NCBI GenBank assembly: GCA_015501605.1
Contig: JADNRZ010000031.1
Coordinates: forward strand, 248,001-312,000
Length of the DNA stretch: 64,000 nt
Direction: 5' to 3'
Origin: Panaeolus papilionaceus
Lineage: Eukaryota; Basidiomycota; Agaricomycetes; Agaricales
Position 1 is the stretch's first letter. Each line of letters starts with the position of its first letter. The position numbers and the translations under genes were made by a program. Under the pieces are notes generated by a model. The model saw only the letters and a program-made list of their open reading frames with translations. It was not told the origin of the DNA and did not search any database. Shown here piece by piece: positions 4,110-63,000 of the stretch.

Positions 4110-4141
4110 TCTCCACGTATACTGTCCGTCGTTGATGTTGA

Positions 4142-5910: not shown

Positions 5911-5924
5911 AGGGCCCTGCCTCG

Positions 5925-9590: not shown

Positions 9591-9639
9591 ATTCTTCAAT
9601 AAAATCGCCCCTTCTACAACAATAACAACCAGCTTCATT

Positions 9640-10821: not shown

Positions 10822-10839
10822 TTGAGGTCAATCAGCCTT

Positions 10840-10849
10840 AAAAAGGGGG
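10840..10849 (+). other. Gypsy-1 polypurine tract
   Basis: AAAAAGGGGG followed by TAA lies directly before the 3' LTR (10853). This is the expected primer site for plus-strand synthesis. Confidence 0.85.
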
Positions 10850-10852
10850 TAA

Positions 10853-15123: not shown

Positions 15124-15340
15124 TACCTCTGCTGAGTTTCGCTATGCTTAGGGGCGTGGGAAACTTCAGAGCAGGTCGTGGTAGCAGATCAAGCTAGTCC
15201 CCAAACCTCCACTTGTTATACGGTAATTCCTAACACATTTCCTAACCCAAAATCTTGCAGAAATACCTTAACTAAAAGGCGGTTAATCCGCCCCTTGTCT
15301 TCCTTTTATATTTCTACATATATTGTGGAAATATCCTCCC
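15124..15340 (-). other. Presumed LINE-A 5' leader and junction
   Basis: No open frame of note. By position the first bases are the 5' untranslated part of LINE-A; the exact 5' end is not identifiable here. Confidence 0.35.
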
Positions 15341-18592: not shown

Positions 18593-18689
18593 CCCTCCAT
18601 GATCCTTCTGCCCTGCCCCACCTGCCTTGTCACTCCAAATGGGAATGTTGTCGCCTTCCATCCTCGTGCACCATCTCTTCTCTTGCACC

Positions 18690-39100: not shown

Positions 39101-42100
39101 TCTAATAGTACAAGTACAACTGATGAACATTTGTACCAGGAATACACCCGCATTCCATCCAGCAAACCACGGTTGAAGATACCAACAAAGAAGGAAAAGG
39201 AAAAATATGGCTTATTCCAAGAAGTGGTGGACAAAGCTATTAAAGAGAAGTCTCTTGACTCACGTACAATCCATGATGATGACTCCTTTATTCAACAGTA
39301 CACCGATCTCATCAATGTCATAAACGAAACCGGGTCACAAGTGTTTGGACACCGAAAATCATTCAAACCATCAACGACCACAATAACAAATGGTACGATT
39401 CAAAATCTCATGTGTCAGATACGCACAGCAGGAGCTGCCATTCTCTATGAGAGATCACACCAGACGCATCATGTATCAATGCGTGCTGAAAGATACCATG
39501 CCACATCAAAGGTCGTATTCGAGAATCGCAGGCCTACCTCTGATGTGGGGATCATGAACACACCTTGGACGCTTGCGCGATTCTTACATCATGAGCGCCA
39601 AAAATTTCACAAAGCTCTCTATGCTGAGCGTGCAAAAGAAATCATGACGCGCGCAAAGAAAGCAGATAAACATCGTATTTGGACAGGCCTGAATGGCTCA
39701 ACCAAAAAGATGCTGCAATCTACACTATTCATACCACTCCCGCTCGCTCTAAATGATGTGGATGATCCTGAAAAGATTGTGAGCGATCCTGAAGGGATCA
39801 AAGCCACAACACGTGAATATTTTAATCGCCTCTATGACCACACCAGAATACCAGTAATGCCGAAGCCATGGCTTACCAGTAAATCTGTTGTGGAAGTCAA
39901 AGCAAGGGTGACCTTGAACCCATTTCAGTGGCCGCGAAAAACAAGCCTTGATGACTTTCGTGCTATGATTCGACGCGGAAATCACAGCCCATCACCTGGG
40001 CCTGATAGATGCGAGAAATGGACCATCAAGGCACTTTCTGATTCGGCACTGTCACTGGTACTTGACCTTCACAACTACGAAGTCATGAACTCGACATTTC
40101 CAGGAAATGTGAAAGATATGTGGCTGACAACCATATACAAAAAGGGATTACGAACAGATCTCCGAAATTGGAGAGGCCTCTGCTTTTCGAATTTTCTTGC
40201 TAACTCACCAATGACATGGCTAAACCAATGCCTGATCAAATACTCCTCGGAGAAAAATATTTTACCAGATACGCAGGTAGCAGCACAACCAGGAGTACAA
40301 ACGCGCGACTTAATGAGCTATCTATCAGCAATCAAATGTTGGGCACACCGCCACAAACAACCTATATACGCAATAAAGAGGGATCAGATGAAAGGATTTG
40401 ACTACCTCTCTCCAGATGGCTTCTATGATGCAGTGAATGCTTACGGACTTCCCTCTGAAATAATAGATCTGGACAGAGCCGCACAACATGAAGTAAAATG
40501 CTATATACAAACAGCTTACGGAGCAACAGATCCAATAACCGTATCAGGAGTCAGTAAACAAGGAGGCCCAGCATCACCGCTCAAATCAACGTACACAACT
40601 AGCATGGGCCACTACTACCTGCGCGACATACTAGAGAACGACTCTGATGCCCTTAGAATCACCACAACAAGCAATAAAAGAAATGACCCGCATACGACAG
40701 ATGCAAGTCTAGAACTTATGGTAGCCATGGTTGAAGCAACAGACGACTCCTACATCTTCTCGAAGACAGCTGAATCGCTCCGACAACACACTTTGACTAT
40801 GGAACGATTTCAATATGCATATGGATGGCTTACAAACTGGATAAAGTCGAATGCATACGTGCTTGCACCAAACCCAGCCGTCACATACCCGCTAACGTTG
40901 ACATTTGACTCTGTAACAGTAGGACCAAGGGAAAACCCCCTTACCATCACAAACAGGACTATAACCCTTATAAAGGATGACATGGACTTCCTACGAACAA
41001 AGGTTGATAACCCTGGTGAGCGTTTCATTGAAATGAAAAATATAATTGATACCTTCCAATTCCCGACTGTGATAGGCCGGCTTCCCATCACGGTGCTACG
41101 AAAGATCGTAGCCCAAAATGTTGTATCAAAATGCCGAGCCCTCCTATCTCTCCAACCGATTTCGAAGACAGATGCGACGACACTGGACAAAATGATCATC
41201 AAGAAAGTGCATGATGCACTCGGTTTCCCATTCCTACCCTCCACCGACATCGCACTCATGCCGATATCTGAACACGGCTTCGCATTCCCCTCAATAACAA
41301 ACATCAATGCAAGCCTAGCAGTTGAAGGTCTGAACAGAGACCTAAACCATCACATACCGGCGTACCGCAATATGGCCCTCATCACACTGGCAGACTGGAC
41401 ATGCGATAAATCAGGATGTCGAAACCCGCTGGAGGACGGAGGACTCACAAAAGACTTCGCAAAACAAATGAAGCAGATACCTGCGAGCTGGATAACGGCG
41501 CAGAAAACCATGTCAGCAACAGGGCTATCCCTGAGAAGAACAGATCAATCAGACATACTACGAGGTGAAGTCTCCATCTCCCATGCTGTGAACATCTGCA
41601 ATCACAAACTTGAACAAACCGACAGGAAAGTTAACGGGACAACCCTACTGTCCCTCAAACGGATGGGAATAAAGCACCTTCGTGACATAGGAAAATGGAA
41701 AATAACCGATGAAGGAAGAATAAGGATGAAGGTATCAGAACTAGGAACGGACAACAGGAAATGGACCCATGCAGCGCGCGATAACTGGACAAAAGTCAGA
41801 AAAATGATTGAAGAACAGCTGGAAATGACCGACTTAGCAACGATGCCTGATCTCACAATTGCAAAGCCCCAGAGAGAAAACCGCGCTGAACAGTATGTTC
41901 ACATACTGGCAAAAATCGGATCGGCAGGCAAATCAATGCACACAGATGGAAGAACATGGGCAACAGATGGATCAGCGATTCCTGCAGCGGCGAAACTCCT
42001 CGAGACAAAGCAAGTCACTGGTGCCGCAATTGGTCCAACATCCCTTGTACTCCGTGTACCAGGGCGAAACATCTCTATCTTACAAGGAGAACAGACGGGT

Positions 42101-43346
42101 TTAATCATCGGACTGAACGAAATAATAAAACACAATGCTCACCACTTTAACCAGGAACATAAAATTTTCACCGACCACCTCAACTCTGTAAGGCTCATAA
42201 AGGACAGCCAAACCCTAGTTTCCCAAATACCGCGACTGCGATACATGAATGGCCGATCCTACTACAGATGGATCATTACCCTCCTTGAGAGAACGAAACC
42301 AAACATGACAGATGTCCAATACACCCCTGGACACTCCAAAGAAAATACGATGGCAGCCAGAATGAACGATGAGGCAGACATGCTTGCATCAACAGCTCAG
42401 AAAAACTTCATGAACCAAGCGGAAATCCCTGCCCCTACCTTCCACATGAATGACTTTACCCTACACCACTCGAATGACGGATGGATAGAGTCAAACATCC
42501 CCAGCTACATCGATGCGCGACTAAATGAGAAGAGGATGAACGAAGTCCATGCGCGAAACGATCACCGCATGGCCAAATCAACACGTGATAGCCACTGCCC
42601 ACCGCCCGAGTACCCTTATCTCAAAGCGACCTCAGCACATTCGGCAGCGGTCCAACTGTATGCAAGATCAGGACAACTACCAACTGCAAATATACTCAAA
42701 AAGAGAAACATCATGGAGGATGATATCTGCAGAATGGAGTGTGGCAACTACACGGAAACGCCGAGGCATATTTTCGTGATCTGCTCGAAATACGAAACAT
42801 GGAGGACCGATGCAACAAATGAGGTAGTCAAACAAACGAAGTTGAAGGCGGAAACGATGGAGATCCCGGAAATATTAGCGCAGAACCTCATACATGCAGC
42901 TGAGTCACTCTTCCGAGATAACGAACTTATATGGCCACTACATGTTTCCCTCTATTACTTAGGACAGATCCCAAACATCGACTCGCTTCTGACTGGCGAT
43001 GAATCGGAACCGCTCACACACATGAAGAAACTACGGATCAAAGCCCACATCTCATCGGATTGGCATACATCAGCAATACGACTAACCGGCAGAATCTTTG
43101 GAGACTTTCAGAAACGAATGGCTGTTGCCAACGGATGCCCGCGAAGGGGTTTAACTTTCAAATAGGACAGACTTCGCACCAGGATACGTTAGCTTTCCCC
43201 ACAGGGGTTTTGATGCACACGTTATCACTGCCATTTACATTCATTTCACATAATTTCTTACCCAACGGTCTATCGAGGTTAGTCGTGTACAAACCTTAGT
43301 CTCCTGTAGGCATAGATAGATATCACTTTGTAACAATTGTAACAAG
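36170..43346 (+). mobile_element. LINE-B: apparently intact single-ORF LINE
   Basis: The element is built around one 6.84-kb open frame. The 5' boundary is not visible; the microsatellite at 36118-36158 may be its edge. The 3' untranslated region ends near TTGTAACAATTGTAACAAG (43329-43347), a short tandem TTGTAACA unit of the kind that ends some LINEs instead of poly-A. No target duplication was found. It shares no obvious close identity with LINE-A. Confidence 0.8.
36326..43165 (+). CDS. LINE-B polyprotein: ORF1-like region, endonuclease, RT, RNase H (2,279 aa)
   Basis: I start at ATG 36326; the frame is also open upstream from a TTG at 36284. The N-terminal 600 residues hold a Pro-rich start, a helical region (about 360-430, coiled-coil-like) and a basic patch (KRKRVEE). 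A hydrophobic stretch follows near 635-655 (ICLMLILIATVFGML). The AP-endonuclease domain runs about 670-915 (YALNANGLI, GETKTQ, AGDLNATV, STDHRGI). RT motifs are RDQMKGFDYL near 1352, KQGGPASPL near 1410 and ATDDSYIF near 1471, so the box is ATDD rather than YADD. RNase H is at 1877-2020 (WATDGSA, YTPGHSKEN). A C-x3-C...H-x4-C motif lies near 2135. There are no stops, so the copy may be young. Confidence 0.88.
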   Translation: MNVPPNPSTPTRPGNHILLTPFTPRTPMRPRARPQGEPQAADNMQIQDVNLPTGTNLIIRGIGANKKNSNPVEILTNIVSQIRITDPSLIPIIIKPFSLRNANDWTTTCYVHIDPSILSRTCADSEPRTDLLEQWKVKLASHNSTWDVAWTPAKNGQDKRMWVRFPDLNDPINQEEARMKVLEWAAAQKYTVCSSYHHKGGITLTMAFPKDVDQIISKDRVNISGLVAKDRLQRVSAGRQIEILQPFELIVLGPLSEYDGLDDLITQWLEDEFTDSGESTLAGTRNPPGEHDTFVFNMTTWAATANVLAPNHQQSFREAFNKYQILPPQLLHTANTTSTFRIRGSIRDDFSKGAETMNKNLLTMSRRLDDFEQQNKQQHLATQLQISSVSASLNEVARSVHSLEDRVTKTQYAILAQSRELGLNRNLTDNSTNILNLKMQILLERDTDKKNELQNLLCAMEAQNIILGAAIKDSSDDFAAIINQGPLTCITALPSIPAQHQQQTNPLASSSNVSMHADATPPQEQMSINKELTGSAGKRKRVEEGGTDSPEPALINLANDAAMVRHYINILSNKLNMAHGGTPVFVTAACPQPISRRPRTLCAFFGVLDNLKDMNEYRSSLFAPVSRIHVSNNSTIINTCKICLMLILIATVFGMLPMAKATPTASVHTTTPLLSIYALNANGLIQPVKLNHINNVINAHKPHVFVIGETKTQSKLSKSLPYHDYDIYEEPGEQCDGHHIFKWGIVMGIRKDLQITQRLELKQLSFKGRVIAIDIILGRSGRTHRLIGAYAPWNPDDDVKTRAFWGDMTDICSSTTQSWTLAGDLNATVSNMERKSGGQDARRQFTKFLQDTNGRDLWSDNEDRTRRMDWTCKTSAATDGNIIDWVVSSSNNVYSAEIYVTDKYTDWIPSTDHRGIMSRINYIFNSNSTSTTDEHLYQEYTRIPSSKPRLKIPTKKEKEKYGLFQEVVDKAIKEKSLDSRTIHDDDSFIQQYTDLINVINETGSQVFGHRKSFKPSTTTITNGTIQNLMCQIRTAGAAILYERSHQTHHVSMRAERYHATSKVVFENRRPTSDVGIMNTPWTLARFLHHERQKFHKALYAERAKEIMTRAKKADKHRIWTGLNGSTKKMLQSTLFIPLPLALNDVDDPEKIVSDPEGIKATTREYFNRLYDHTRIPVMPKPWLTSKSVVEVKARVTLNPFQWPRKTSLDDFRAMIRRGNHSPSPGPDRCEKWTIKALSDSALSLVLDLHNYEVMNSTFPGNVKDMWLTTIYKKGLRTDLRNWRGLCFSNFLANSPMTWLNQCLIKYSSEKNILPDTQVAAQPGVQTRDLMSYLSAIKCWAHRHKQPIYAIKRDQMKGFDYLSPDGFYDAVNAYGLPSEIIDLDRAAQHEVKCYIQTAYGATDPITVSGVSKQGGPASPLKSTYTTSMGHYYLRDILENDSDALRITTTSNKRNDPHTTDASLELMVAMVEATDDSYIFSKTAESLRQHTLTMERFQYAYGWLTNWIKSNAYVLAPNPAVTYPLTLTFDSVTVGPRENPLTITNRTITLIKDDMDFLRTKVDNPGERFIEMKNIIDTFQFPTVIGRLPITVLRKIVAQNVVSKCRALLSLQPISKTDATTLDKMIIKKVHDALGFPFLPSTDIALMPISEHGFAFPSITNINASLAVEGLNRDLNHHIPAYRNMALITLADWTCDKSGCRNPLEDGGLTKDFAKQMKQIPASWITAQKTMSATGLSLRRTDQSDILRGEVSISHAVNICNHKLEQTDRKVNGTTLLSLKRMGIKHLRDIGKWKITDEGRIRMKVSELGTDNRKWTHAARDNWTKVRKMIEEQLEMTDLATMPDLTIAKPQRENRAEQYVHILAKIGSAGKSMHTDGRTWATDGSAIPAAAKLLETKQVTGAAIGPTSLVLRVPGRNISILQGEQTGLIIGLNEIIKHNAHHFNQEHKIFTDHLNSVRLIKDSQTLVSQIPRLRYMNGRSYYRWIITLLERTKPNMTDVQYTPGHSKENTMAARMNDEADMLASTAQKNFMNQAEIPAPTFHMNDFTLHHSNDGWIESNIPSYIDARLNEKRMNEVHARNDHRMAKSTRDSHCPPPEYPYLKATSAHSAAVQLYARSGQLPTANILKKRNIMEDDICRMECGNYTETPRHIFVICSKYETWRTDATNEVVKQTKLKAETMEIPEILAQNLIHAAESLFRDNELIWPLHVSLYYLGQIPNIDSLLTGDESEPLTHMKKLRIKAHISSDWHTSAIRLTGRIFGDFQKRMAVANGCPRRGLTFK

Positions 43347-48098: not shown

Positions 48099-48480
48099 GT
48101 CACCTGGTAGGTGGACAGTAATTTGCCACAGAAGGATGCTATGATGAGATATGATGATGGTTGTAAGTGAGAAAGGGAATCTTTGTTGTTGCAATGCCAG
48201 AGTATGTGCGTGGCATTGGAACTCGCATTGATCTAACCGACTCACGTGATACAAGGCGGAACTCGTCGTTCAGTACTATAAATATGGGAATACTAAGAAT
48301 AAGAAATGTGCATGTATGGTGCATGGAGGATGTGTGACGCTTCATACTTACGGGGGCGCAGGCGACGACATGAAGAAGTTGGGCACCTTGATTTTTCGAT
48401 GGTTTTCGTGGGCAACTACTCAGTCTCAGGCCTAGTGCCCGTCGGGATGACGTTGGTCTGACCTGCAGAATATCTCAGAC

Positions 48481-48507
48481 CACTGTGAACCCAGCTGAGG
48501 GGTTATT
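48481..48507 (+). repeat. Left terminal inverted repeat of the CACTA element
   Basis: CACTGTGAACCCAGCTGA then GGGGTTATT; 26 of 27 bases match the complement of the right end. Preceded by the GAC duplication at 48478-48480. Confidence 0.9.
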
Positions 48508-48926
48508 GACCCTCTTGAGCAGGGCAGACCCCCAAAAGCCACCCTAGAGCGGGGGTGGTGAAAAGGGGGTTTAGGGGAGGAATTATCAAAACCCTCCCGG
48601 AGTAAGGAATTCACAACACCGTATTCCAGGGGTTCTTCGTTCCTCTTTTTTTGTGAGGGATTTACTTACGGGCGTTCCAAGGGGTCTAGTGGAGGAATCA
48701 TAAGACTCACCAGAACGCATTGAGCCCCCGTCGAAAAGAGGATTAACCCATGTAGAAAACACAGATTCTGTGTATAAGTCGAGCTCATTCCAGTCCAACG
48801 AATGCATCATATCTGAGATCCAGTGTAAAATTCCATGAAATAGAAATAGGGATAAATTATATAACTAGATTCAGCAGACAAAATAATACAATTCCGAACA
48901 CGAATAAATATAAGAGAAAGATGTAG
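48508..48926. other. Left subterminal region of the CACTA element
   Basis: No gene. The region is rich in G runs, with near-repeats of CCCTC / GAGGG words that are also common just inside the right end (about 59940-60066), as expected for subterminal transposase-binding DNA; this is not proven. Confidence 0.4.
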
Positions 48927-51900
48927 TTAAGCCTCCTGGTCCCGGGAGCGATCAACAAATGTCCATTGCGCTCTGTCCCAAACACGACCTACAAGGCACT
49001 GAATGGTGGAAAGATCGATAATGTCCTTACGGCCCAGCTCTTTATAAGTCGTGAGCTTCTTGTTGCCATTGACCTCAGCACAAAGCTGAACAAGCGCCAA
49101 GATGACCCTCTGGTTGCGGCGGATATTGAGTGTAGGATTTTGCGGTACATCAAGAATTATAATCCGTAGAAGCCGGCCAAAGTACGTATGCTCCTCAAAT
49201 TCGGGGGGAGCTGAGCGGATGTGTGCTTTGCTATCCGTGGTTTGGATATACTGAAAGATATTAGTACTCTGACCACTAATCAGGTCCCAAATCAAGTGCT
49301 CACCTTAATAAATGTAGAATCACGAGTATCTTCACGTTCCCGGACAAGTTCCCGGGCTGTGATTAAGTCGCCCTCCTTTCCAATGAGAACTCGGCCGTAT
49401 TGCAACACGGCATCGTTCAACGGTAGGTGTTTTTGGAACATACCTTTTGTAGCCTTCCTGAGGCCGCTGACCCAATAACGTGTGACGAAGGACGTCCAAA
49501 TAAGTGATTTGATGTCGTCGGGGAGTATCTCACATTGCTCAGGAGATAATAAACGGAATTTTTTGTCTGAGTGAAGTAAAACGAGTATTAATTTCGTCAA
49601 TACATTAGATTTAATCATGACTCACAGTCTCGTTGCGAGTCGCGGTATAACACCGTTCTCTTCTTGTTCCGAGACCCCAAATCCAGATCCTTTTCCGCAT
49701 CATAGATTAGCCGAATCTGGTCAAGTTGAGCAACGGCGGTGACGAAGTTACTGATAACCGTATATGGGAAGCGGCAGCTGCGAATTGCGGGAAGCAAAAA
49801 GTTACAATGCCTTTCCATCGGAAAGGCCCAATACCCCCCGGCGGGCCTGCAACACGAATACCCCAAGCAATGTGAAGGAGGGCGTGGATGGTCAGGGGGC
49901 ATGCAGAGAGCCTGGCTGTGTCGTGTCGGTAATAAAGTCTAATCATGCCAAGTGTTAGATATCATAGAACAGTGCAGTTTTGGAAGGTTACATACCTTTC
50001 ATAGTCAATGACCCACTTTTGAAATCCCGTCTCCAGTTGCGACACCTTGGCAAGAGTAATTTCATGATCGAGACAGAGCTTCAAGAGATCAACGAGATCC
50101 ATGAAGTGCTTGTAGTATCTCGGTTGTTCCCATTGGCCCTGAAGAACGATCGGAGCAATGAAAAGGGTCCAGTTAGAGTACATTTCAGCAGTCATGAAGT
50201 ACTGTTGATTTGCGATGTTGGGTACTGGAGCTCCAAACGCTGAAGGAATTGCACGTGCACATTTCGCTGTGGATTCGCCCACGTCCTTCCAGATGTGTGG
50301 GGCAATAACATAGGGCATGTTGCTGTGATCCAGGCCTTTAAACTCGCCAGTCCAGAAGAGAATAAGATTGGGAATGAGGTTTTCCCAAATAAGATGCATG
50401 AAATCGAAGGGGAAGGATGTTGGAAAAGATATTGAGGAGAGACTGGAAAGAAGGGGTGTCCCTTTGACGCCGTATTCCTTCGCGAGGTTGTTACGTTCCG
50501 TTTTAGTCCTTGCTTGTTCCACAGCAGTTGCCTGCTCCAAAAATTGTGTATGTGTGTGTATGGGTAAGGTTGATGCGTTGTAATTTGTAGAATTTGGGAT
50601 CCCATCCCGACAGAGGGGGACATAGTTGACACGTCCCCCTCCCGTCACACCTTTGATAAGGCAGACTTGGCATGGCGCAATACCGTTTTTCCCCTTTGTG
50701 CGGGTAATCAAGGACATTGCTGGTATGTTGCCAAACCCAAAGAGAAGATAGACATGGAGGTCGAAAATCTCCTGTTGAAGCCCATCGAAAGCCTCTATCC
50801 CCGCCTCCAGTTCGAGGAGTTCCTGCGCTAGAGGCCAGAAGAAGGAGTCCCAGTCCTGGGGCTTCTTTGGTCCAGGCACCGTACCTATATGGATTATGTA
50901 CTGTTTAAGCATGCGTAGTGTTGGGGGGAGGTTGTAATTCAAGAGGATGATAGGCCAGCAGGTCTTCTTGCGGCGTCGATGTGGACCAAACCCGTCGGTT
51001 GATAGCCCAAGAGCGATATCACGGGGGTCAGAAAAGAAGTTGAAGTCTTGATTGGGAACTGGGGTTTCGCAGAGGCGCTTGTAATGGCTACCGTCGAAGA
51101 CGTCGCGGATGATGCCAGGTTGGGGTTTATACTCGCCGCGATACTGCATTTTGGAGGCAAATGAACCATTAGCAACCATAGCGGTTAGACGAGGGATAAG
51201 GGGTATGTACTCGAAGTACTTCCAGGGCTTGTTTCGCGAAGAAAACCGGGGTTCCTTACAATGGGGGCACTGTTCAAGGTCTGCAAAAGGACCAACGAAA
51301 CAGACACAACTGTTGATGCAACAGCTGTACTGCACTGACTGAAACCCAGAGATCTGGCGAGCATGTTTCTTGGTCATCTTGAGACTCAGTTGGGGGCCCT
51401 TGGGGAATGTCTTTGAGAGCCGTTTGAAGGTCTGCTCTGTGAGGTGATCTTCGGTCTTGAGTGTGAAGGTACGCAAGATGTCCAAATCGTCCTCAGTCAA
51501 GGAATGAGCTTGAGCAGCTAGTTAAAGGGTTAGAATCACGAGTGAGTCATTTCAGGTAGGTGAAACATACACTGGATTCTTGCTTGAGCAGCGCTTGCCG
51601 CCTCTCGTCGCGCAGCAAATGCTGCAGCTGCCATCACATTTGTGTTATCCTCGTCCTCTTGCTCCCGTTCCTCGTCGTTCTCATCTTGACCCTCATCGTT
51701 CTCGTCCTCGTCCTCGTCCTCACCATCCCCTTCTTCGTCCTCTTCATCTTCACCACCATCATCTGATAATAGCTCCGGAAGCTCCTCCTCCTCCTCCTCC
51801 TCCTCCTCCTCCTTGACTCCCTCCTCCTCATCCTCACTGGGATGGTCAGCAATGAATGGGCCCAGAGTCGCATGCCAAGCCCAACGCTCTGCTTGAGCAG

Positions 51901-52267
51901 CGGCAAGCCTCTTCGAAAATCGACGAATGGGAACCTCTTGCTCAAACACACCCATTTGTAGAGCATCATCGCTTGCTGGATTTTCCATGGGATCATCTTG
52001 GTCTGAACAGTGCCGGGATTCTGAGCGGTGTCGTTTCCGAGACTCTGGAGCGCTTTCATTGGGTATGGAGTCACGCCAGCAAGAGCGTTTGGGGCATTCA
52101 GAAAAACTGTTGCCTTCATCCAGTAGGATGTTTGGATCGTTGGAGTTGCTGGAGGCTAAGCGCAGGGCTTTTAGGCGTACGGATCCACCACCTCTGTCAT
52201 GGGAGCGCTTGGTGGCGCGGGAGATCCACTCACTGCAGCAGGTACACCAAACAGGGGGGTCGGTCAT
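48927..52267 (-). pseudogene. Plavaka-type CACTA transposase gene (five exons, one frameshift)
   Basis: Exons (minus): 52267-51571, 51517-49996, 49940-49626, 49566-49304, 49250-48927, about 1,040 codons. Exon 1 starts MTDPPVWCTCCSEWISRATK (C-x2-C...H, zinc-finger-like) and has a long Glu/Asp tract. Exon 2 has a second cysteine cluster (CCINSCVCF...CPHCKEP) and the catalytic core: LSTDGFGPHRRRKK (first Asp), WPIILLNYNLPPTLR and FDFMHLIWENL (second Asp). Exons 3-5 match the 17.7-18.6-kb relic. At the six-C run 49834-49839 one base is missing relative to that relic (GPVWAYWAYPMER), breaking the frame. It would cut and move the element. It is transcribed away from the TGACACGAAGTCA array. Confidence 0.85.
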
Positions 52268-52711
52268 AGCAATGATTCAGGATATGCAGAAAAGAGTAGA
52301 TAGAGATGCAGAGGTTAGATGGGGAGGAGTAACTGGATAACTGGGGTATAAATACCTTAATTTTGGCTGTTCTTGGGTGGCACATTGGTAGTTCTAGGGC
52401 AGCAATAGGGCGATAATTTGGCAAAGTCGGCGAATGTTAGGATGTAGCGCAGTATTAGCGGTTCTTGGGGCTATGTTGGTGGCTCCTCGGTGTATGTTGG
52501 TAGTTCTTCGGGGTATGGTGGTAATTCGAGTGCATTGAGGAATGAATTGGTGAGTACATTGGAAGTTTAAGGGTGATATGTCGGCGGTTCTTGAGGTCAA
52601 TGTGGGTTGTTTCTGAGTCGAAATGAGGCGATAATCTGGTATGTAGACCGTAAGTCTATATTGGTATCTTGCTGGTGACAGGTAGGCCAGCAGCATCAGG
52701 ATATGTAACAG

Positions 52712-53164
52712 TCAACACGAAGTTGGCGTTGTGCATACCGAGACAACCTGGAAGACTTGGTTGACACGAAGTCAAAAGTCCATGCTTAGATTGCAGATGA
52801 CACGAAGTCAAACTGCTCAACCCAGCTGGGATAATCTCGCTTTATTAAATGAATAATATGTAAACCAGAGGCATCTGATTAATCACTCACTCAAATCAAG
52901 TAGACGAAGATACCACCATAGCCGGTAATTTGCCAGAGAGAAGCAAAAGCAAGTGTTTATCAAAGGGCTGGAGGTTTCCCAAGTTATAGAAGATTCTAAG
53001 ATGCAGACAGGTAAAAGGTATCAATGAATAACAACGATGAAAATGACACGAAGTCAAGGTATCGCAACCAGACCAGAATGACGCGAAGTCATAGGGATCT
53101 GTGTCACAACTAGACCATAATGACGCGAAGTCAAGGTCTAAGAGGCTAGAATGACACGAAGTCA
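52712..53164 (+). promoter_or_regulatory. Array of TGAC(A/G)CGAAGTCA sites, left half
   Basis: Six exact copies start at 52762, 52798, 53044, 53079, 53121 and 53152, with a degenerate one at 52712. The site is an imperfect inverted repeat, TGAC-N5-GTCA. All copies point the same way on the plus strand, so toward the transposase gene they read TGACTTCGTGTCA. They lie about 450-900 bp upstream of its ATG. The gap to that ATG (52268-52711) has no gene; words such as GGTAGTTCTTGGGG recur there. Confidence 0.8.
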
Positions 53165-53597
53165 GATTCTAGAACAGACATAGCAGTCGACTGAGGTGGA
53201 GGCACTGAGGGGAGAGCAAAGCGAGAGAGGAGACTTGAACGATGACGGGAGACTCAAGAGTTGAACAAACGAACTCCGTGATGTGATGGTGTGACACGTT
53301 ATATCACACGTGACTGTGTGGTTGGTTTGTGTGACGTTCGCGTGAAGTCCTACACACACCTACCATCAACACCACTGGAACTTCGCCTCCCCCTGCTCTC
53401 TTCGTCCACAGCTTCTGGCAGTTGAAAGCAACATAGGTGCTCAAGGTATGTCAACTACCTTCAATGCATGTAAAAGGTGAACCCTGATGACTGCTTACTA
53501 GGACACAATCATCAAGATTTACACCTTGGTGAGCCATCGTTCGGATGACAACCACCATGCCACCATACCAGCGATCGCAATTCCCATCCCATTGAGC

Positions 53598-53815
53598 TGA
53601 CTTCGCGTCACTCTGAGTCAAAGCTCAGGAATGACTTCGCGTCATCTTCTTGACTTTGATTTTTGCAAGCTTTGACTTCGTGTCATTGTGCTTGCAATGG
53701 GCTTCCTACCGGCCAGTTGCACTGAGTCGACTTTGCGTCACTCAGATTCAAAGCTCAAGAATGACTTCGTGTCATCTCTTTGACTTTGGGTATCGCAAGC
53801 CTTGACTTCGTGTCA
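53598..53815 (-). promoter_or_regulatory. Array of TGACTTCG(C/T)GTCA sites, right half
   Basis: Five exact copies start at 53598, 53632, 53673, 53762 and 53803, plus a degenerate one at 53727. All are in the opposite orientation to the left half. They lie in a tandem duplication with a period of about 129 bp (53598-53726, 53727-53850). The array is about 230-450 bp upstream of the plus-strand ATG at 54044, so each divergent gene sees the site in the same orientation. The 430 bp between the halves has no gene. Confidence 0.8.
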
Positions 53816-54043
53816 TGATGCTTGCAATGGGGACTTACCAGTGGGTTCACGACTCTGTCGTCCCCTCAGCATCACCCCTCAAGACACCCGCTATTATGAT
53901 TTGCGACATCTCCACCCAGCGCAGGCATCGGTTTACGCAGGCTCTAATTAGGATCGTCTTTTCACAGGTTTTTGTGAGTATGTCAAACTGTATCTTGATT
54001 ATTATGCTTAATTCCTTTAGACATCAGACCTTTCAAGATCGCA

Positions 54044-56206
54044 ATGGCTACCTCAAGTATCCTTCTCGCAAACAGAAATTCTGCTGGTAAGTCTACATTT
54101 ATTCATCTGTATTTCTTCTATTCTAATACCCTTTCCAGCTCCACTCACCGCTTACGATGGAAAGGTTGGAGCGGTCATCGGGACATATGTTTACACATCG
54201 CCCAACGAGTCGTTCATTCCACATCCACTTCTGGGCCATCGCCATGTCCGTGTTCGTGAAGACTATCGATATGGCCCTGACAACCACACCTTATGGCCCC
54301 AACCATACAGCGAGGAGTACCCGCACCTTGGTGCTATTCCCCGACGCCCCCAGGATCCCAATGATCCACTTTCGGTTATGTGGTATGACCCCGTTACGAC
54401 AGATTTTTGCGCCATCAACAATGGCAGCATCGTAGACGACCTAGGAAAGCTGGACCCCACCCTTGTAAATACGAAGATAAAACCACTCGTGGAATCGCTA
54501 CAGGACCGATTTAAAATGTGGTCCTCGTCAATCCTGGACGACAAACCAGTGAAGAAGTTCATGTCCGTTCTTGAACGAGCACTTTACTACACCTTCGTAC
54601 GCCTTCAAGCCCTTGTCACATCATTACATCAAATACGCTTCACCTTCACCGAGCTTCAGCGCTATTACCTGGAAGCCCTTGGGTGTTTGGACTATGTTGA
54701 GATTTACAAACCACGTATGGATGCCGCTCAGTCTTCACCACCCCCCTTAGCCAATACGATGGGTGTCTTCACCTCCAAAGTTCGCATTGTAGAGGAGTTC
54801 ATGGCTGCTGGCCTTCCAGTTTGGTTGATTCGGGAATGGAAGCCCCAAGGGTTCGGGAATAATGTTCTATCTGAAGTTGTGCCTGTTCACTACTTCGACA
54901 GCCTTGTCAATCAGCTGCACAGCGCTTTCCCGTCCCTCTTCTCTGGGGAGGTCTTCATTACATCTGCGGAAGTGGTCGGCCTTGTTCACACATTCTCTCG
55001 GTGATGGAGTTGTAGTGCAGATCCTTTTGAGGATGTCCCCAACTCATCTTCAGCACCATCCTCTGGTCATTCTACGTCATCAAACGCTCGTTCTTCTGTG
55101 CCTGAGGCCTCATCAAGTCGCTCAAGTGATCCCCCACCTCGAAAAAAAGCGAAAACTGGATCAAGTGTGAGCAGTGTATCCTCATCGCCTGGTACGTTGA
55201 CTGTTCATATATTGTCTTGAAATAATTCTAACTCTCCTGAATGTATTCAGCTAAACCAAAGAATCCGCCTAAGTTTCAACGCGATAAGTTCTTACCGTTG
55301 GAAGGCCCTATGGCACCGTTTTCCATTCCTGCCTGGGCCAATGCCCTCCGTAATGTTGACAGGAAGCAGGGTCCTGTTCTATCCCACATCAAACGCGGCG
55401 TGTTCTACGCATTTCCAGATCCTGGCCTTTTTGTCACTGTCGAAACGGATGCAAGACGTCAACACCTTCTGGAACAGTATGCTCGAATCAAGTCTGCATG
55501 GATTTCAAAGATCACAACGACGCCGGGTGCATCGTTGAGCGCTCAGGAGTGGCGCGACTTACTCACCATCAACTTCAACGATCCAGTACCTGATTACCAA
55601 CCCCAGGCTGGTGATTCACGAGCAATGGAGAGTCATCGAAAGGCACTACGGCTTCTCGTTCCTGCTGCAGCTCGAGCTCATCGAAAATTGTCGTCTGGGA
55701 GGGACATGCCCTTCATGGTTACCGGTGAAACATTTGACTCTGGTGCACTTCCTCCCCCGTCCACGATTCGCAAGTTCCTCTTTGAGCTTTACGAGCTCAA
55801 TTTTCGCAAGGAGCTACTTCTCCTTCACCGCACTGCTCACCCAAAGTGTAGTAACGATGCAGAGAAGCAAGCCAGGGAGTTTGAGGTCAGGTCGTTGTTC
55901 CCCAACATGACATACTACATCCCCTCCCTCGACCCTCCTAATTCTGGACTTGCGGCGGACGATATCAAATCCAGGCTACCCTTTCTGCTGATTCTAGCAA
56001 GCTTGATGAACTCCTGGAAGGGGGAGAAGCCTCCTATTCTGGCAATTGGGCGACGACGCAGCATTGAAGGGATCTCTCTTCAAGAGGCCCATCAGCTGGA
56101 ACAGGCGGTTGCTTCGTATTACTGCCAGCAATTTTACAACTATTTTCGCCGAGCCGCTCTGATCCCCCATCGTCTGTATGAAGCGTCGTCAGTACTATCG
56201 TCTTAA
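54044..56206 (+). CDS. Accessory gene 1 of the CACTA element, about 680 aa, unknown function
   Basis: Exons: 54044-54087, about 54139-55191, about 55251-56206. It starts MATSSILLANRNSA. The second exon has MWYDPVTTDFCAINNGSI, a helical stretch with YYLEALGCLDYVEIYKP, and an agaricomycete-style block (MGVFTSKVRIVEEF, then GLPVWLIREW). A Ser-rich linker with an NLS-like PPRKKAKTG follows. The C-terminal part has FLPLEGPMAPFSIPAWANAL and FNDPVPDYQ. No catalytic motif or membrane segment was recognised. An in-frame TGA at 55002-55004 (after HTFSR) stands where CGA is plausible, so the copy may be truncated. Transcribed away from the mirrored site array and therefore perhaps co-regulated with the transposase. 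Confidence 0.7.
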
Positions 56207-56499
56207 TTGATGTGACTCGTTTTTGGTATGTGTTTAACAGAGTAATCCTAAATCATGTTGATCCTAAATCTATGTTTTACAGATTTTTGGCCGTTATTTT
56301 CTTCAAATGTTTATCTTCGCTTTCGTTGTGCATGTCATCATCTCGCCCTCTTCGTTTATTTTTTGGTAAGAGTGGCTACATATTTCACTAGAATTGCGAC
56401 TAATCTATCTACCCATAGCTACTTTTATATTTATAATATGACTGTTTCCGAGAACATTGAGTTTGACCTAAGTTACAGAGTAAGTTGCTAAATATTCTC

Positions 56500-57232
56500 T
56501 CAACAGTAAGTAGACTGACCTGATAATCCCCCTCTCCCAAAGATCCTGAACCGCGGCAAGTACCCTTCTTTCGTTTATTGCTGGATTTGCGTGCAGCTTC
56601 CACCTTGCGATTCCAGCGCGTGACCCGCTTTTGGAGTGGTGGTCGCTTCTTCACTCGTTCGACTGCAGCTTTTGCAAGGTAAGTAGTTGTTACCATATTC
56701 GTAAATGATGCTGGGCTAACCTTGTTGTAATTGGTTTGCAGGTGGTGCCATACCCTGTTCGCTTGCGATCCCGACACTCATACTGTTGTGCTCGATAGTC
56801 TCAGCCTCGGTGTCTGACTCTACATGTCCCAAAACTGTGAGTATGTCAGTAATTTAAAGGAATATTACTCACCATCGGATGTAGAACGATCACTAGATGG
56901 ACGCTCCGCTAATAAAATAAAAAGATAAGTCAGTCAGCCGATTCAGTCAAGGTATGAAAAATAACCTTACATTCAACACCACCAATCGGGCCATCGACAT
57001 GTCGACGACAGCGTTCGGGCAAATCGGTACACACAGTCCCGTCAGTTTCGTAGTGTGCAAGCTGGTTTTCACCACACCCACAGTCAGACTCGGAGTCTGC
57101 GTCGTAACCAGCACCCACATCGACGTTGGACTCGGATTTCTTGCAACAGGTGAGCGATAGCTCCTCATCGCCGTCGAAGAGGACTGATGCTTTGAAGCCG
57201 AAGGAGGCAATATGAACTCGAAGTTCTGGCAT
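56500..57232 (-). CDS. Accessory gene 2 of the CACTA element, small unknown protein
   Basis: A minus-strand gene with at least three exons. Exon 1 (57232 to about 56966) opens MPELRVHIASFGFKASVLF and is Cys/Asp-rich (SDCGCGENQLAHYETDG). A middle exon at about 56845-56735 reads LGHVESDTEAETIEHNSM. A basic last exon at about 56690-56540 reads VERVKKRPPLQKRVTRWNR, then KKGTCRGSGSLGEGDYQ. Exact junctions are uncertain. A TATA box (TATAAAA, complement at about 57298-57304) lies about 65 bp upstream of the chosen ATG, so the ATG at 57295 would precede the transcript. The basic tail suggests nucleic-acid binding. No family was recognised. Confidence 0.5.
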
Positions 57233-57296
57233 TGCAGAGATGAGAGAGCAGAAGAATGACAAGGTGAGCTGTTTTTTTTGCTTATTTCTGTCCATC

Positions 57297-57304
57297 CTTT
57301 TATA
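57297..57304 (-). promoter_or_regulatory. TATA box for accessory gene 2
   Basis: CTATAAAA on the minus strand, about 65-70 bp before the ATG at 57232. The spacing supports that start over the upstream ATG codons. Confidence 0.5.
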
Positions 57305-57783
57305 GCTGACAACCCCTTCGCCTTTGTTTATCTTAATTTATAAAATTTAAATGATGCTAACCCTGCAACAGATGCTCAAGAGTCGGTTTATGCAGGTTGT
57401 TTAGAGCCGCCCGGCGCGACCCCTAAATTTGATATTCACTTTGCGTCTCCAAGTCAGCGTAACCATTGACTCAGCTTTTTTTTTGAATAGAACCCTTTGC
57501 GGCGACGTAAATATCCCCGTTCTAATCAAGAAAAACCGACGCACCTGCAGAATGCACGAGGTTCACAAGTCCTGTTTAGTCTAGAGCGCATATCCCTGCA
57601 CCGTTTAAGACAAGGGACACCACCGTATTTTACCATTTTTGATGAACCTTGGCCGCCACTCCTCCACTGGGACCTGGTAAGTTCTTTTTTTTTTGCATCC
57701 CTAATCATTCTATTCTAACGGATCTCGTGGTGCTTGCCTTTGGCCATATTTGGTGTGGCTAATGATTAAGGTGCGTATTTTCT

Positions 57784-57791
57784 CTATAAAA
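57784..57791 (+). promoter_or_regulatory. TATA box for accessory gene 3
   Basis: CTATAAAA lies about 61-68 bp upstream of ATG 57852, giving a plausible start site near 57815. Confidence 0.55.
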
Positions 57792-57851
57792 AGGTCACCA
57801 GATAGCTCATATCCTCCATCTTGCTCTTCTCCTCTTTTCACCTCTACAAGC

Positions 57852-59630
57852 ATGCCTCGAGCGAACGAAAACGCCAATCCAACGACAACCCGCGTCACCC
57901 ATCAGACCACCAACTCCCGCAACAACAAATCCGCTGCCAGATCTGGTGCCAAACCCGCTACCAAACCTGTCGTCAAACCCACTGCCGCCAAACCTGCTGC
58001 TGCTAAACCTGCCGCCAGACCCACCGCTGCCAACAAAGCTGCCGCCAAGCCTGTTGCTAAACCTGCCGCCACCAAACCTGTCACTAAACCCATCGCTAAA
58101 CCTGCCGCCAACAAACCCGTAGCTAAACCCGCCGCCAACAAATCCATCACCAAGAAGCCTGCTGCTGTTTATGGTACTAAGAGTATGTTAAAATCTTCCA
58201 TGATCTTTGATCTCTTCTGATTAAATTTAGAACATCCTTTGAAAGAGATTGATACAAATCGGGATGCCGAAGGAGCAAGCTCTGACTCCGAGTCAGACTC
58301 AGATTCAGACTCGGACTCCGAGTCCATGTCTGAATCTGCGAGGGACAAGTCCTGCTCTTCACGAATGGCCGAGCGTCTTGCTGCGATGGAGAACAAGATG
58401 GCCGCTAAAGACGGTATGTTATTTTCTCCTTCTTTACTATGTATGTTGCGTCTAATCTTATTTCAGCCCAGCTTGCTCGCTTAAGGAAAAAAATGGGCAT
58501 TATAAAGGCAGCAAAAAAGCGTCAGCAGAGCTTGATCCCTCGACCCAAGCCTCTCGGCAACCTCCAAATTGCCATGCGCCTGGCTGGAGGGAGTTCTGAG
58601 CGCAGGGAGTACTTGAATACTCGTGTAGGTTGTTCATTGTCTTTTTTTCTCTCTCTACTAACGCTCAATCGGTAGCAGCAAGTCTTCACGACTCTCATTG
58701 GACTGGGTGTCAATGCGGAGACCGATACCTTCCGGAGCCTCAGTCACTTTCAGCTTGCCAAATTTATCAGTGTAGTAAGTCATTATATATATCTGTCATC
58801 TACTGTCTATACTAACTTTAACAGTTAAAAGATGAGATGCCGATCTTCTCTCGCTACGAAGACGTCTGGCCCATCCCCGATCTCATTCAATCGGTCCTCA
58901 AGAACAAACGTCACCACAAATCCCGCGTGAGGCGCGCAGAAGAGGCTGGACATTCTTCAGCTGATGACGGCATCGCTAATCAATCGCACGAGGAAGATAG
59001 CACCACCCCACTCCCTAGTGCCCCTGCAACACCTAGAAACAATGCACAAGACGACGATCTTACTCTTCCCGCCCGTGCCTACTTCTCCTCACTCTCCCCC
59101 TTCTCCGCAACCACTAATTTCCAATGGCACGAACTCGAGAATTATGCCGATAAATTTGGACGTGACGCCCAGGCCAACAGCGACGATGATGCCGACGACA
59201 ATGGGGACAGGGTGTTTGGTGGTCGCAACACCAGTTCCTATATCAGGAGGTCCAGATTCAACCAGGAGAATGAAGACAACGACAGCGAGGATGGGGATGA
59301 TACAATGAATAATTGCGAGGGATCGGAGGATGAGGACGCAGAGATGGAAGGTGATTTAGATGTGGAGTATGAAGATGACGAGGATATGGAGAGCGGAGAA
59401 AACGAGGGGGGGAGGATGAGGAGGGCGTAGAGGAAGAGAGTGAAGACGATGAAGAGGAAGAGGAAGGGGGCGAAGAGGAGGACAGTGAAGAGGAAGAGGA
59501 AGGGGGCGAAGAGGAAGACAGTGAAGAGGAAGAGGAAGAGGAAGGGGGCGAAGAGATTACTATTGGGACGAAGAGGAAGGCTTTTTCTACCGTCATGGAT
59601 ACCCGAAACAAGAAGAAATTCAAGGTTTAA
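57852..59630 (+). CDS. Accessory gene 3 of the CACTA element: KPAA-repeat, basic and acidic nuclear-type protein
   Basis: Exons: 57852-58182, 58231-58413, 58467-58624, 58676-58774, 58825 onward. Donors are GTATGT, GTATGT, GTAGGT and GTAAGT. The N terminus is a long Lys-Pro-Ala repeat (KPAA/KPVA units, about 57950-58160) like histone H1 tails. A Ser/Asp repeat follows, then a conserved-looking core (ARLRKKMGIIKAAKKRQQS, IPRPKPLGNLQIAMRLAGG, MPIFSRYEDVWPIPDLIQS). The last exon is highly acidic. As read it stops at 59430. With one more G in the seven-G run at 59406-59412 it continues through Glu-rich repeats to KRKAFSTVMDT...KKKFKV at 59630, an NLS-like end. It is probably a DNA-associated protein; the family is not named. 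Confidence 0.65.
57940..58160 (+). repeat. KPAA-encoding minisatellite
   Basis: Tandem imperfect 12-bp-based units (AAACCTGCCGCC-like) inside exon 1 of accessory gene 3. They encode Lys-Pro-(Ala/Val)-(Ala/Thr) repeats. Confidence 0.75.
59440..59560 (+). repeat. GAAGAGGAAGGGGGC minisatellite, about 36-bp unit
   Basis: Three imperfect copies of a Glu-rich unit (EEEEEGGEEEDS) in the last exon of accessory gene 3, in the frame reached by correcting the upstream G run. Arrays like this change length easily. Confidence 0.75.
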
Positions 59631-60065
59631 TCGGTTCTTTTAGTGCTAATAACATCACCTTTGATTCCATATTACCACCATGTTTCTCACTTTTCATCAC
59701 ATTTTCTATATTTTAAACTCCTTTTATTGTCATCGTTTCATATCTTTTTCTCGTGTTTTCACAACTATATACGCCTTACATACATTGTTATTTCCCTATC
59801 TAGTCCTCTTTTTGTGTATATAATCCTCTCTCTAACATCGCTTTTAACCACCGTTTTTGCAATTCCTCTGCTACGCTGGAGGGGATCCCTCGTTTCAAAG
59901 GGGCTTTCCTGGTAAATTTTGATGAGTAAAGCTACCTTAAAATCCCTCTTCTATTGTGAGTGAATATCATACGATCAAGGTATGTAATTACATCGCTATC
60001 TATGATGATCTTCCTTACCTACCCTCTTTTCAGGTACTGTTATTCACTGATTAAAACTCAGAGGG

Positions 60066-60092
60066 AATAACCCTTCAGCTGGGTTCACAGTG
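60066..60092 (-). repeat. Right terminal inverted repeat of the CACTA element
   Basis: The complement reads CACTGTGAACCCAGCTGA then AGGGTTATT, one mismatch to the left end. Followed by the GAC duplication at 60093-60095. Confidence 0.9.
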
Positions 60093-63000
60093 GACCTAGC
60101 CATAGTGACAGGCCTGTAGGCCGGTTTCGGACAATTAAATGCTAGAATGTAAGCCACACCAGCTCAGATGCGGCTTTTTTTATGCTGACGTGGTAGACAT
60201 GCCGCCAGGGTTTTCGTTGATGTTCGACCTGATATTTGTATCAGTCCAACAAATCGATAACCCCGCATACACACCACCCTCGTAAGATCCACCCCTCCTA
60301 CTCTCTGGTAGTACGGTTTACCGAATACACCTGATGACGTTCACAAGTTGTGATGCTCATCCAGCGTTAATCCCGATTGACTCTCGCGATGTATTGGGAC
60401 AGCTCTTCTCTATCGATATCGCGAATGCCTCTCGCTCTGACATTCGTGGTTGGCTGTCTATGACACATACTACCCTGTTTGAGCGTGAAGCAATCGCTCT
60501 CGATACTGCATTGCTTGCAAGATGGAACTTCAGAGGCATACCTCATTACCCTGCCACAGTCTCTGGAGTAGGTATGAGCATTGATATCCCAGATATCGGA
60601 AAGCCGCTACATTTTTCTCCTCTTTTCTCATCAATGCATCGTCGCCCTCGCTGTCTGATCAGCCGCTGTCGCGCTCCGAACGGTTTACCCCATGAAACCC
60701 ACTCCACAAGGATCCCGAGCAACCGCAGCTTAGCTCCACAGCAGAACTAAGCGCCAAGTAAGAGTTAAAAGCTCGTTTCATTCACGCTCCCCACTTAGTC
60801 TGGAATGCGCGATTAATATCAATATTTGTAAGACTTTATTTTCATTTTCTTGTAAATATTACTCCTCACCCCATGCACTCACAACCCCAACCTCTATGCT
60901 CTCTTCCTTAAATGTAAGTAGTAATTGTAATATTCTTCATTTTTGCTTCCCGATTGGATAGCAACCCTTTATCTCCTGTACCATATGACTGTTTCTTATC
61001 ATCTTAGTAGTTTTGTGTTTGTACGCTTTCTTGTAGTATAAAAAGTACAGCACAAGAACGAATGAGAAACAGGTTCTTTATCCCTCACATTCGAATTTAT
61101 GAGTATCTGAGTCAATCGGCACTCACCCCAGCTTCGTATCTCTTAGTTTCATCACCAGCGATCGAAATCTCGATGCTCAGCGCTTCGCACATGTCCAATA
61201 CCACTCACACAGCGTCACATTCATTCGAAACGAGGCTATAATACCGACTACAGGTCTATGTGGTACCTACCGTGCTCCGTGCCTTCGCCCTCGCTCAACC
61301 ACATAGCCGCTTACCTTCGGTATTCCCATTACCCATCACCATCACCACTTGTGTTGCACGTTGCGTGTGACATATTCTTTTACTTGGTTGTTTTTATACC
61401 GCATACCGTAGGCGGTACGACACCGTGCACTGATGTTTTTACAAGTGATGCGCGCTGCGCTCATCATTTTGCCATTTATGTACAAGCGTCGGCAATGCTT
61501 GGACATCTTGGACGTATAACCCCTTATCCCTGTTCTCTCCCTGTTTACCCTTATGTTATTGACTCTTCCTTTTGTTGTAGTTTTATCCTTCACCGCTTTA
61601 TGATTCATTCCATTTTCTTGGACATCCCTTTCTCCTTTCCTTGATTTTCCACAGAATTACACATAATTGTACCTATTTTGCAGAATATACGGAGCTTTGC
61701 CCCCAACATTTTCGTATTTCGTGCCTGTATTTGTATTTCGTCGTTACGTTGTGCGGGCCGTGTGTTCACGCCTAAGTTACCTAGAACAATGTCGAATGAC
61801 CTCACTTATACGTAAATCATCCCTCCACCACTTAATGCCTCCCCTCTCCTAGTGAAAGATAAACAGTAGTAGATTGACTGAGGTATAGAGTACATGAAGG
61901 CGGGTATTTACAGCTAGACGTGCTATTGCACTTGTACCACGGTCAAGGCATATAATAAGAACATGAAATAAGGAAATATTCGCGTTAGCAGCTAAGTGCA
62001 ATGTGTATACAGATCATCATAATGGGGGAAACGATGGTCCAAAGAAGATATAAAAAAAAGGAATAAAATGGCAAGTAAACATAAATGGAAAGAGCGGGCG
62101 CTTAGCCCGAGGCATATTTGGTAAAAAATAAAGATAATAAGGATAATAGAATAACAATAAAATAGACCTTTAATGACCATCAGGCAGCGCAAGGCGCATA
62201 CCCGATTTCAACATCTCCTCTCCTCTCTATCTCATCCCTCTGACTGACACACCTATGCCTGGGTGGTTAAAGGACTTTCTGTGATGGGACATCTTTTAGA
62301 TTACAGTAAAATGATCTTTTGATAATGTTGAGATTCATTCTTAAGGCTTTTCGTTTAGAAATTTGGCTTAAAAAAGGTTCTGGTTGTTGATAATCACCTT
62401 TTTAAAGCGTTTAAAAGCCTATATCTTGCGTCCATCGTTGCGAGACCAGGAGTATGTAGGTAGGAGGAGTTGGGGAGTGGGATCGGAAAGTGGTTATGAG
62501 ACCAGTTTCCCGACCCAGTGTGAGAGTCGAGGATGTGGACGGATGCGCCCCCATCCTCGGCTCTCCCTACCTACATACGGCAAGTCTGCAAGGACGACGT
62601 AGCGCAGAGGAAGGGACAGTGATTGATATTGAAGGGGGAAGTGGAGGGCGGGCAAAAGAAAATAAATTAACTATGAGAACCATGGACGCGGAGTGCGCGA
62701 GCACCGTGGTTGTACAGGATGAAGTAAGTAAGTAAGGAGGAAATTGTGAGTTGGTGCTGTCAAGTGGTCTCACACACGTGACCAAGAAGACAGATCTGTG
62801 CTCGCACAGATCTTCTCATTGTCTACTGGTATGGACCCTGGTAGTGTAGAATGTACCTTTATCAACAAGATGATGGAAGATAGGGGTGTGGGAGGGAGGT
62901 AAATGAGGTAGCACAGGAGCCGACGAGCAACCGAAGAGTTCGGGAGCCAAAGCGAAATGTTGACTTAACCTGGCGTCTACAGAACACCGCACGCTCCCCT

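Follow-up and report, generated by a model that had tools for sequence, protein, structure and literature searches.

A fungal CACTA/EnSpm transposon with four genes and a mirrored motif array in its divergent promoter

We analysed a 64,000-nucleotide stretch of contig JADNRZ010000031.1 from the mushroom Panaeolus papilionaceus (assembly GCA_015501605.1, positions 248,001 to 312,000 of the forward strand), here called the window. It contains a genuine mobile transposon of 11.6 kb that carries four genes, namely a transposase gene and three companions referred to as genes 2, 3 and 4. The transposase gene and gene 2 are divergent, and the promoter region between them harbours a mirrored array of the motif TGACRCGAAGTCA. 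The features of the element are collected in Table 1.

Table 1. Features of the transposon, with positions counted along the window.
Feature	Position	Strand	Details
Left target-site duplication GAC	48478..48480		Other copies show other 3-bp duplications
Whole CACTA element	48481..60092		11,612 bp; ends set by copies elsewhere in the Panaeolus papilionaceus genome
Left terminal inverted repeat CACTGTGAACCCAGCTGAGGGGTTATT	48481..48507	+	Direct reading and copies
Transposase gene	48927..52267	-	Exons 52267-51571, 51517-49996, 49938-49626, 49566-49304, 49250-48927; Transposase_21 (tnp2)
Mirrored array of 11 TGACRCGAAGTCA	52762..53815		6 in + orientation (52762-53164), then 5 in - orientation (53598-53815)
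Gene 2	54044..56206	+	About 683 codons; exons 54044-54086, 54139-55191, 55251-56206
Gene 3	56500..57232	-	178 codons; exons 57232-56971, 56908-56873, 56834-56721, 56668-56564, 56519-56500; basic C-terminus, motif CxCxxNQLxH
Gene 4	57852..59629	+	Exons 57852-58182, 58231-58413, 58467-58624, 58676-58774, 58825-59629; basic KPAA repeats, conserved core, acidic tail
Right terminal inverted repeat	60066..60092	-	26/27 identical to the left one
Right target-site duplication GAC	60093..60095		Copy comparison

By direct reading the element terminates in CACTGTGAACCC at each end, and its inverted repeats agree at 26 of 27 positions. To place the ends we searched the 50.9-Mb host genome with queries of 240-260 bp across each of them. 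Each end gave 16 matches, and most of the good ones begin at 48481 or end at 60092, within a few bases. The resulting set comprises 17 copies or fragments, that is the window copy and 16 others from the host genome. Both ends are present in 13 of these, and 12 of the two-ended copies are flanked by identical 3-bp sequences (gac, att, aca, att, cag, cat, tcc, gtc, acc, tcc, ctc and gaa), the sole exception being copy C5 with the mismatched flanks tag/ctt. Seven two-ended copies belong to a full-length class of 11.5-19.7 kb and six are short forms of 1.0-3.0 kb. The sequence-only reading of this DNA had proposed CACTG ends with a GAC duplication at these positions, and a joint mobility of the four genes, with a search for such ends about 11-12 kb apart as a check. 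The ends and duplication are confirmed by direct reading and by the genome copies, the ends pair at this spacing in the seven full-length copies, and the same gene set recurs in copies with different 3-bp duplications, in agreement with a single mobile unit. A look for clusters of exact 8-10-mers near the ends, covering 260 or 330 terminal bp of this one copy, the window's, found none.

Three of the short forms (C40, C6 and C20), each of 2.0 kb, share 98.3-99.0% identity along their length and have three different 3-bp duplications. They still carry the ends typical of the family, and of their three array motifs one is exact while the other two contain a mismatch. Their near-identity at different duplications indicates that transposase was being supplied rather recently and that this non-autonomous form moved recently. 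Insertions are seen in two other copies: C2a holds about 8 kb of other DNA within its divergent promoter, and yet its transposase, gene 2 and gene 4 are all open, and in C70 both the transposase and the vicinity of gene 4 are interrupted by inserted DNA.

The transposase matches the Pfam family Transposase_21 (tnp2) with an E-value of 2.3e-25. The window exon reaches 89.5 bits against a cut-off of 28.6 and the C3 copy 84.3 bits; DUF4218 is weakly suggested, at 14.6 bits in the C3 copy and thus under its cut-off of 27. In all four copies with an open transposase the motifs STDG, FGDIPA, C(2)C, H(3)H and MER follow one another in this order, the residues being assigned by reading. This order fits the pattern of CMC transposases given in the accessible portion of PMC12730594, i.e. 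D, D and E with C(2)C and H(3-4)H ahead of the last E. Based on the Transposase_21 match, the CACTG ends and the 3-bp duplications we assign the element to CACTA/EnSpm proper, four features of which are found here together: inverted repeats starting with CACT, a 3-bp duplication, the Transposase_21 domain, and D/D/E with C(2)C and H(3)H.

The four genes had been called from the sequence alone and prove to be real. For the most part, copies agree in the splice sites and reading frames of the transposase, gene 2 and gene 4, and exon 1 of gene 3 is conserved in all nine copies that contain it. Over the compared region, the gene-4 model of copy C34 shows 100% identity to P0033, an annotated protein of the host. 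In the window copy, however, three of the genes are broken and gene 3 is open. When the exon models are projected on the copy alignment, the window transposase is thrown out of frame by 1 nt in exon 3. An in-frame TGA interrupts gene 2 at 55002-55004, and gene 4 loses its frame close to the acidic end. Open versions are found among the other copies, for the transposase in C24, C34, C3 and C2a, for gene 2 in C34, C3 and C2a, and for gene 4 in C67, C34, C3, C18, C2a and C14. None of genes 2 to 4 contains a Pfam domain over its cut-off.

The gene-2 protein has a confident structure model, with a predicted local distance difference test score (pLDDT) of 83.8 and a predicted template modelling score (pTM) of 0.81. 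It evidently has relatives across Agaricomycetes: at least 32 related proteins were found at E<=0.001, some from Panaeolus papilionaceus itself and some metagenomic, in a search that scored the 7995 candidates sharing most words, so that the list may be incomplete. The relatives come from Panaeolus, Phlegmacium, Hypsizygus, Marasmius, Mycena, Armillaria, Polyporus, Obba and Meripilus. In two copies of gene 2 a TGA stands in place of the CGN codon found in most others (the stop at 55002-55004 in the window, where most others have CGA, and codon 58 in C24), a change that matches the expectation for a lost methylated CpG cytosine.

Gene 3 is the least certain of the four models, and its later exon borders vary or are uncertain between copies. 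With the later borders of the window copy it stays open in few copies; if canonical introns are allowed within 14 nt, at least one open model is obtained in five of eight copies, a permissive count made without a control. No recognised Pfam domain was found in gene 3. Gene 4 starts with KPAA-type repeats that vary in number, exon 1 measuring 172-463 nt in the full copies, and ends in a strongly acidic stretch. Searches with its protein matched only proteins of Panaeolus papilionaceus, six at E<=0.001 in one search and two in another. The gene-4-like proteins of the families C11b and C9 begin with MARTKAS(S/L)K, which after removal of Met we take to resemble the histone H3 tail, and histone-tail mimicry by these two proteins is possible. 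The gene 4 of the window family starts instead with MPR, after which come NEN-like residues.

We then compared the coding sequences between copies. The ratio of nonsynonymous to synonymous divergence (dN/dS) has a median of 0.17 for the transposase (range 0.13-0.59; 7 copies, 21 pairs), 0.13 for gene 2 (0.10-0.22; 7 copies, 21 pairs), 0.29 for exon 1 of gene 3 (0.16-0.56; 9 copies, 36 pairs) and 0.32 for gene 4 (0.24-0.43; 6 copies, 15 pairs). These values refer to in-frame coding lengths, excluding the transposases of the window and C70, gene 2 of C18 and gene 4 of the window, C24, C70 and C17; all pairs were kept and stop codons were skipped in copies having them. The median synonymous divergence (dS) between copies is 0.56-0.75 for the four genes. 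High dS together with low dN/dS indicates that the copies are old relative to one another and that selection has acted on the four proteins, all four genes being evidently under constraint between copies. The between-copy distances of different regions correlate along the element (Mantel r 0.43-0.91 for 21 region pairs in 8 copies), with a p-value above 0.05 for one pair, gene 3 and the array. The imperfect correlations suggest exchange between copies.

The arrangement of the genes extends well beyond the window family. Gene 2 forms 39 clusters in the host genome, of which 35 lie within 25 kb of a tnp2 gene; gene 2 is divergent from it in 34 of these 35, at a distance of 2.1-2.9 kb in 22 cases. 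For this pairing the main tnp matches were merged and short matches to later exons were excluded. Conversely, 20 of 55 tnp clusters are without gene 2. Sixteen of these constitute a distant clade, which shares at most 31% identity with the window family or is recognised through Pfam alone, and four are closer, among them C10, which is truncated within gene 2, and C22, which lies at a contig end. At 21 of 40 gene-2 places a gene-3 match follows 0.5-1.1 kb downstream on the other strand, and at 27 of 40 a gene-4 match follows 2.4-3.5 kb downstream on the strand of gene 2 itself. Each place is counted once here, and one gene-2 cluster is split, hence 40 places and 39 clusters. Even the nine weak gene-3 matches (E 0.002-0.43) all fall at the expected place, although such places amount to about 0.07% of both strands of the genome (a prior of about 0.0007 each). 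In families C11a, C11b and C9, where gene 3 and gene 4 have no sequence match, inspection by eye reveals gene-3-like frames at the expected place with CxCx(1-2)NQLx(1-2)H, and gene-4-like frames with a basic start, a P.L..Y..GW core and an acidic end. Family C5a provides a complete 12,012-bp element that terminates in CACTGTAAACCC, is flanked by an AAC duplication and holds all four genes; for family C25b no convincing CACT termini were found.

This recurrence changes how the companions are viewed. The sequence-only reading had described them as three extra genes; they are present in the element, but the same order and orientation in diverged families speaks against their being extra. Their association with the element is supported by the proximity of gene-2 clusters to tnp2 genes, and conserved syntenic positions outside elements were not seen for them. 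Since genes 2 to 4 occupy the same places in diverged families, they represent standing equipment of a CACTA clade in this genome and not cargo, and they appear to be functional components of the element, not passengers.

The second recurrent feature, the family-private mirrored array in the divergent promoter, is a new observation that was absent from the sequence-only reading. All 11 motifs are exact, with the + motifs on the transposase side and the - motifs on the gene-2 side, and TGACRCGAAGTCA has no match elsewhere in the window. Genome-wide there are 72 exact matches. The base composition of the window would predict about 2.9, and the reversed pattern, taken as a control, has 2. Of the 72, 69 lie within 14 copies of the window family; the other three are found at C17, near a family fragment and beyond its aligned part, at C5:1071356 in the divergent promoter of family C5b, and, as an unassigned match, at C23. 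When one mismatch is allowed, all + motifs precede all - motifs in nine of nine copies with a whole promoter.

Related families have their own versions of the array. In four of six families examined a changed motif is present in mirrored form, CGACRCAAAGTCA in C5a and C34b, CGACGCGAAGTCA in C5b and, as the weakest of the four, GAGTCTGACC in C25b. No clear mirrored array was found in C11a and C11b, C11a having only GACGGACGTCA three times in one orientation. The motif of C5a and C34b, searched as YGACRCAAAGTCA, gives 36 genome matches compared to 6 for the control; 25 of them are in these elements and 11 elsewhere, so that this motif is less private than TGACRCGAAGTCA. Among the 21 region pairs, gene-2 distances track the array distances best (Mantel r 0.91).

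We favour, at a probability of roughly 0.58, a reading in which the element represents a fungal CACTA/EnSpm lineage with four genes as its standard equipment, the companions acting as partners of the transposase and one of them binding the mirrored array. The tnp2 protein would cut and join the DNA, and the products of genes 2, 3 and 4 would be its obligate partners in binding the ends, assembling the complex and contacting chromatin. One companion, most likely that of gene 2 or gene 4, would bind the array and thereby set the expression of transposase and gene 2 jointly, similar to TnpA in maize Spm and VANC in VANDAL elements. The array indeed has the look of a binding target through which a sequence-specific protein would control the two divergent genes at once. 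Its sequence is nearly private and differs from family to family, and this argues for a binder encoded by the element. Gene 2 is our leading, still tentative, candidate for this binder, gene 4 a weaker one, and the transposase N-terminus or gene 3, taken together, as well as a host factor, are each less probable again. The sequence-only reading had put the companions forward as possible transposition helpers or anti-silencing factors; the array makes such a TnpA- or VANC-like role more likely, and its binding may activate, repress or prevent silencing. A more far-reaching proposal, in which we place less trust than in the four-gene lineage, would be a regulatory system of a kind not described so far: the element's own companion would read the family-private array, both would change together as families split, and each family would thus control, and possibly un-silence, only itself.

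Several observations weigh against this reading. A Foldseek comparison of the gene-2 model with the PDB and a viral library yielded nothing at E<=0.001, although the model was searched whole and a known domain could therefore have been missed; nor did gene 2 match any Pfam family above chance, so that neither fold nor Pfam search provides a pointer to DNA binding. The structure model of gene 4 is poor and largely disordered (pLDDT 45), and gene 3 has no open canonical model in three of eight copies (C67, C18 and C2a). The short forms C1, C5, C6, C20 and C40 hold two or three motifs (at most one mismatch) in a single orientation, and C2b, a 967-bp form with matching duplications, has zero array motifs; the full array is thus probably dispensable for mobility. 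As the array adjoins gene 2, linkage together with recombination among the copies may account for the correlation of 0.91. With respect to the layout, four of the 39 gene-2 clusters are without a tnp2 gene inside 25 kb, two gene-2 clusters at C14 share one tnp gene, and many of the counted loci are copies of one another, so that the counts are not independent events. Finally, two of 23 gene-3 and four of 31 gene-4 match places lie away from gene 2. The former are C14, which is a fragment of the window family, and C24:41463, at a distance of 11 kb downstream from its gene 2; the latter are the family fragments C14 and C17, C24:44356 (14 kb downstream) and C40:9844. Three of these six places are in fragments of the window family or past an apparent insertion.

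Other explanations address the array and its reader. The array could consist of sites for a fungal host transcription factor driving both genes, with genes 2 to 4 serving transposition only. Divergent promoters often share activator sites, TGAC/GTCA half-sites resemble bZIP sites, and the motif has a TGAC..GTCA core, words containing GTCA or GACGTCA being retained in several related families. We nevertheless consider a host-factor promoter rather unlikely, as the motif is nearly absent outside the family and changes between families, which a conserved host factor would not predict. Slightly less doubtful, by analogy with VANC, is an anti-silencing function, in which a companion would read the array and strip or prevent silencing marks on the shared promoter, array and protein changing together. 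The near-confinement of the motif to the family, its clustering in non-coding DNA and its change in related families match what the available text of PMC5735166 describes for VANC21 and YAGTATTAY, and the variable number of gene-4 peptide repeats recalls the tandem peptide motifs that, according to the same text, VANC variable regions often hold. Yet the arrays described there are same-orientation and occupy several non-coding regions, whereas the present one is mirrored in one promoter. Moreover, Pfam recognises no demethylase or TET/JBP domain in the four proteins. For TET/JBP in particular, Pfam gave no match in genes 2 to 4 and the gene-2 fold search listed no dioxygenase, a distant PE type being visible by structure only.

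Two further alternatives concern the nature of the element as a whole. Genes 2 to 4 could be host genes picked up by the transposon, as their lack of a Pfam domain over its cut-off would allow, and plant CACTA elements are not known to carry genes 2 to 4. Such a capture is very improbable in view of the recurrence of the same three genes in the same order and on the same strands in diverged families whose tnp2 proteins are about 50-62% identical, the company of tnp2 for 35 of 39 gene-2 clusters and the constraint on all genes. We give even less credence to the Plavaka label under which the sequence-only reading had placed the element. Pfam includes a Plavaka model, and no Plavaka family is among the Pfam matches at E<=1 for the element proteins, whereas Transposase_21 lies well over its cut-off. 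The accessible portion of PMC12730594 gives Plavaka termini as TGT..ACA or CATCA..TGATG, unlike the CACTG..CAGTG ends and 3-bp duplications found here; the recognisable similarity of Plavaka and EnSpm transposases stated there is what speaks for the label.

In other parts of the window, positions 1576-20562 hold pieces of retroelements, i.e. RNase H at 1576-2724, capsid-like, protease and reverse transcriptase matches at 4142-7526, endonuclease-reverse transcriptase at 11436-13061, and reverse transcriptase with RNase H at 19069-20562. A single open frame of 2309 codons spans 36236-43165 and has a sub-threshold reverse transcriptase match (21.5 bits compared to a cut-off of 29.6).

Fungal CACTA elements have been described mostly by their transposase, and in open-licence full text we found no description of the four-gene set or the promoter array. 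A fixed four-gene set with a family-private array, if true, would explain many unnamed proteins in mushroom genomes. Likewise, diverged families with different motifs in one genome would, if confirmed, offer a ready system for studying the co-divergence of a protein and its DNA target.

Comparison with known systems places the element among CACTA transposons and sets its organisation apart. In plants, Tam1 encodes TNP2 and TNP1. Maize Spm with TnpD and TnpA, as presented in the accessible part of PMC1636069, shares with our element the CACT ends, the 3-bp duplication, a Transposase_21 protein with C(2)C and H(3)H, and a second protein beside the transposase. Unlike these plant elements, the present one has four separate genes on both strands and a divergent promoter with a mirrored array in mid-element; no subterminal repeat cluster was seen in the terminal 260/330 bp of the window copy (exact words), and gene 2 has no Pfam match to a plant second-protein family. 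CNIRT6 of Cryptococcus resembles it in its CACTG ends, CACTA transposase and basidiomycete host, but the available text of PMC12810828 mentions one annotated gene of 6.9 kb, the transposase. The fungal EnSpm and TET-carrying EnSpm/Plavaka elements reported by Kojima in 2025 (PMC12730594) are likewise CMC-type elements of Agaricomycetes with proteins beside the transposase. They differ in that TET/JBP was not recognised in our element, and in the accessible portion of that report neither a four-gene set nor a promoter array is described. The closest parallel to the array is found in the VANDAL elements of Arabidopsis with their VANC proteins, which, in the part of PMC5735166 available, also combine several genes per DNA transposon with near-private motif clusters in non-coding DNA that are changed in relatives; the window family has such a family-specific non-coding cluster. 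VANDALs are Mutator-like and carry their motifs in a single orientation in several regions, whereas the Panaeolus papilionaceus element concentrates them in one mirrored array between two divergent genes.

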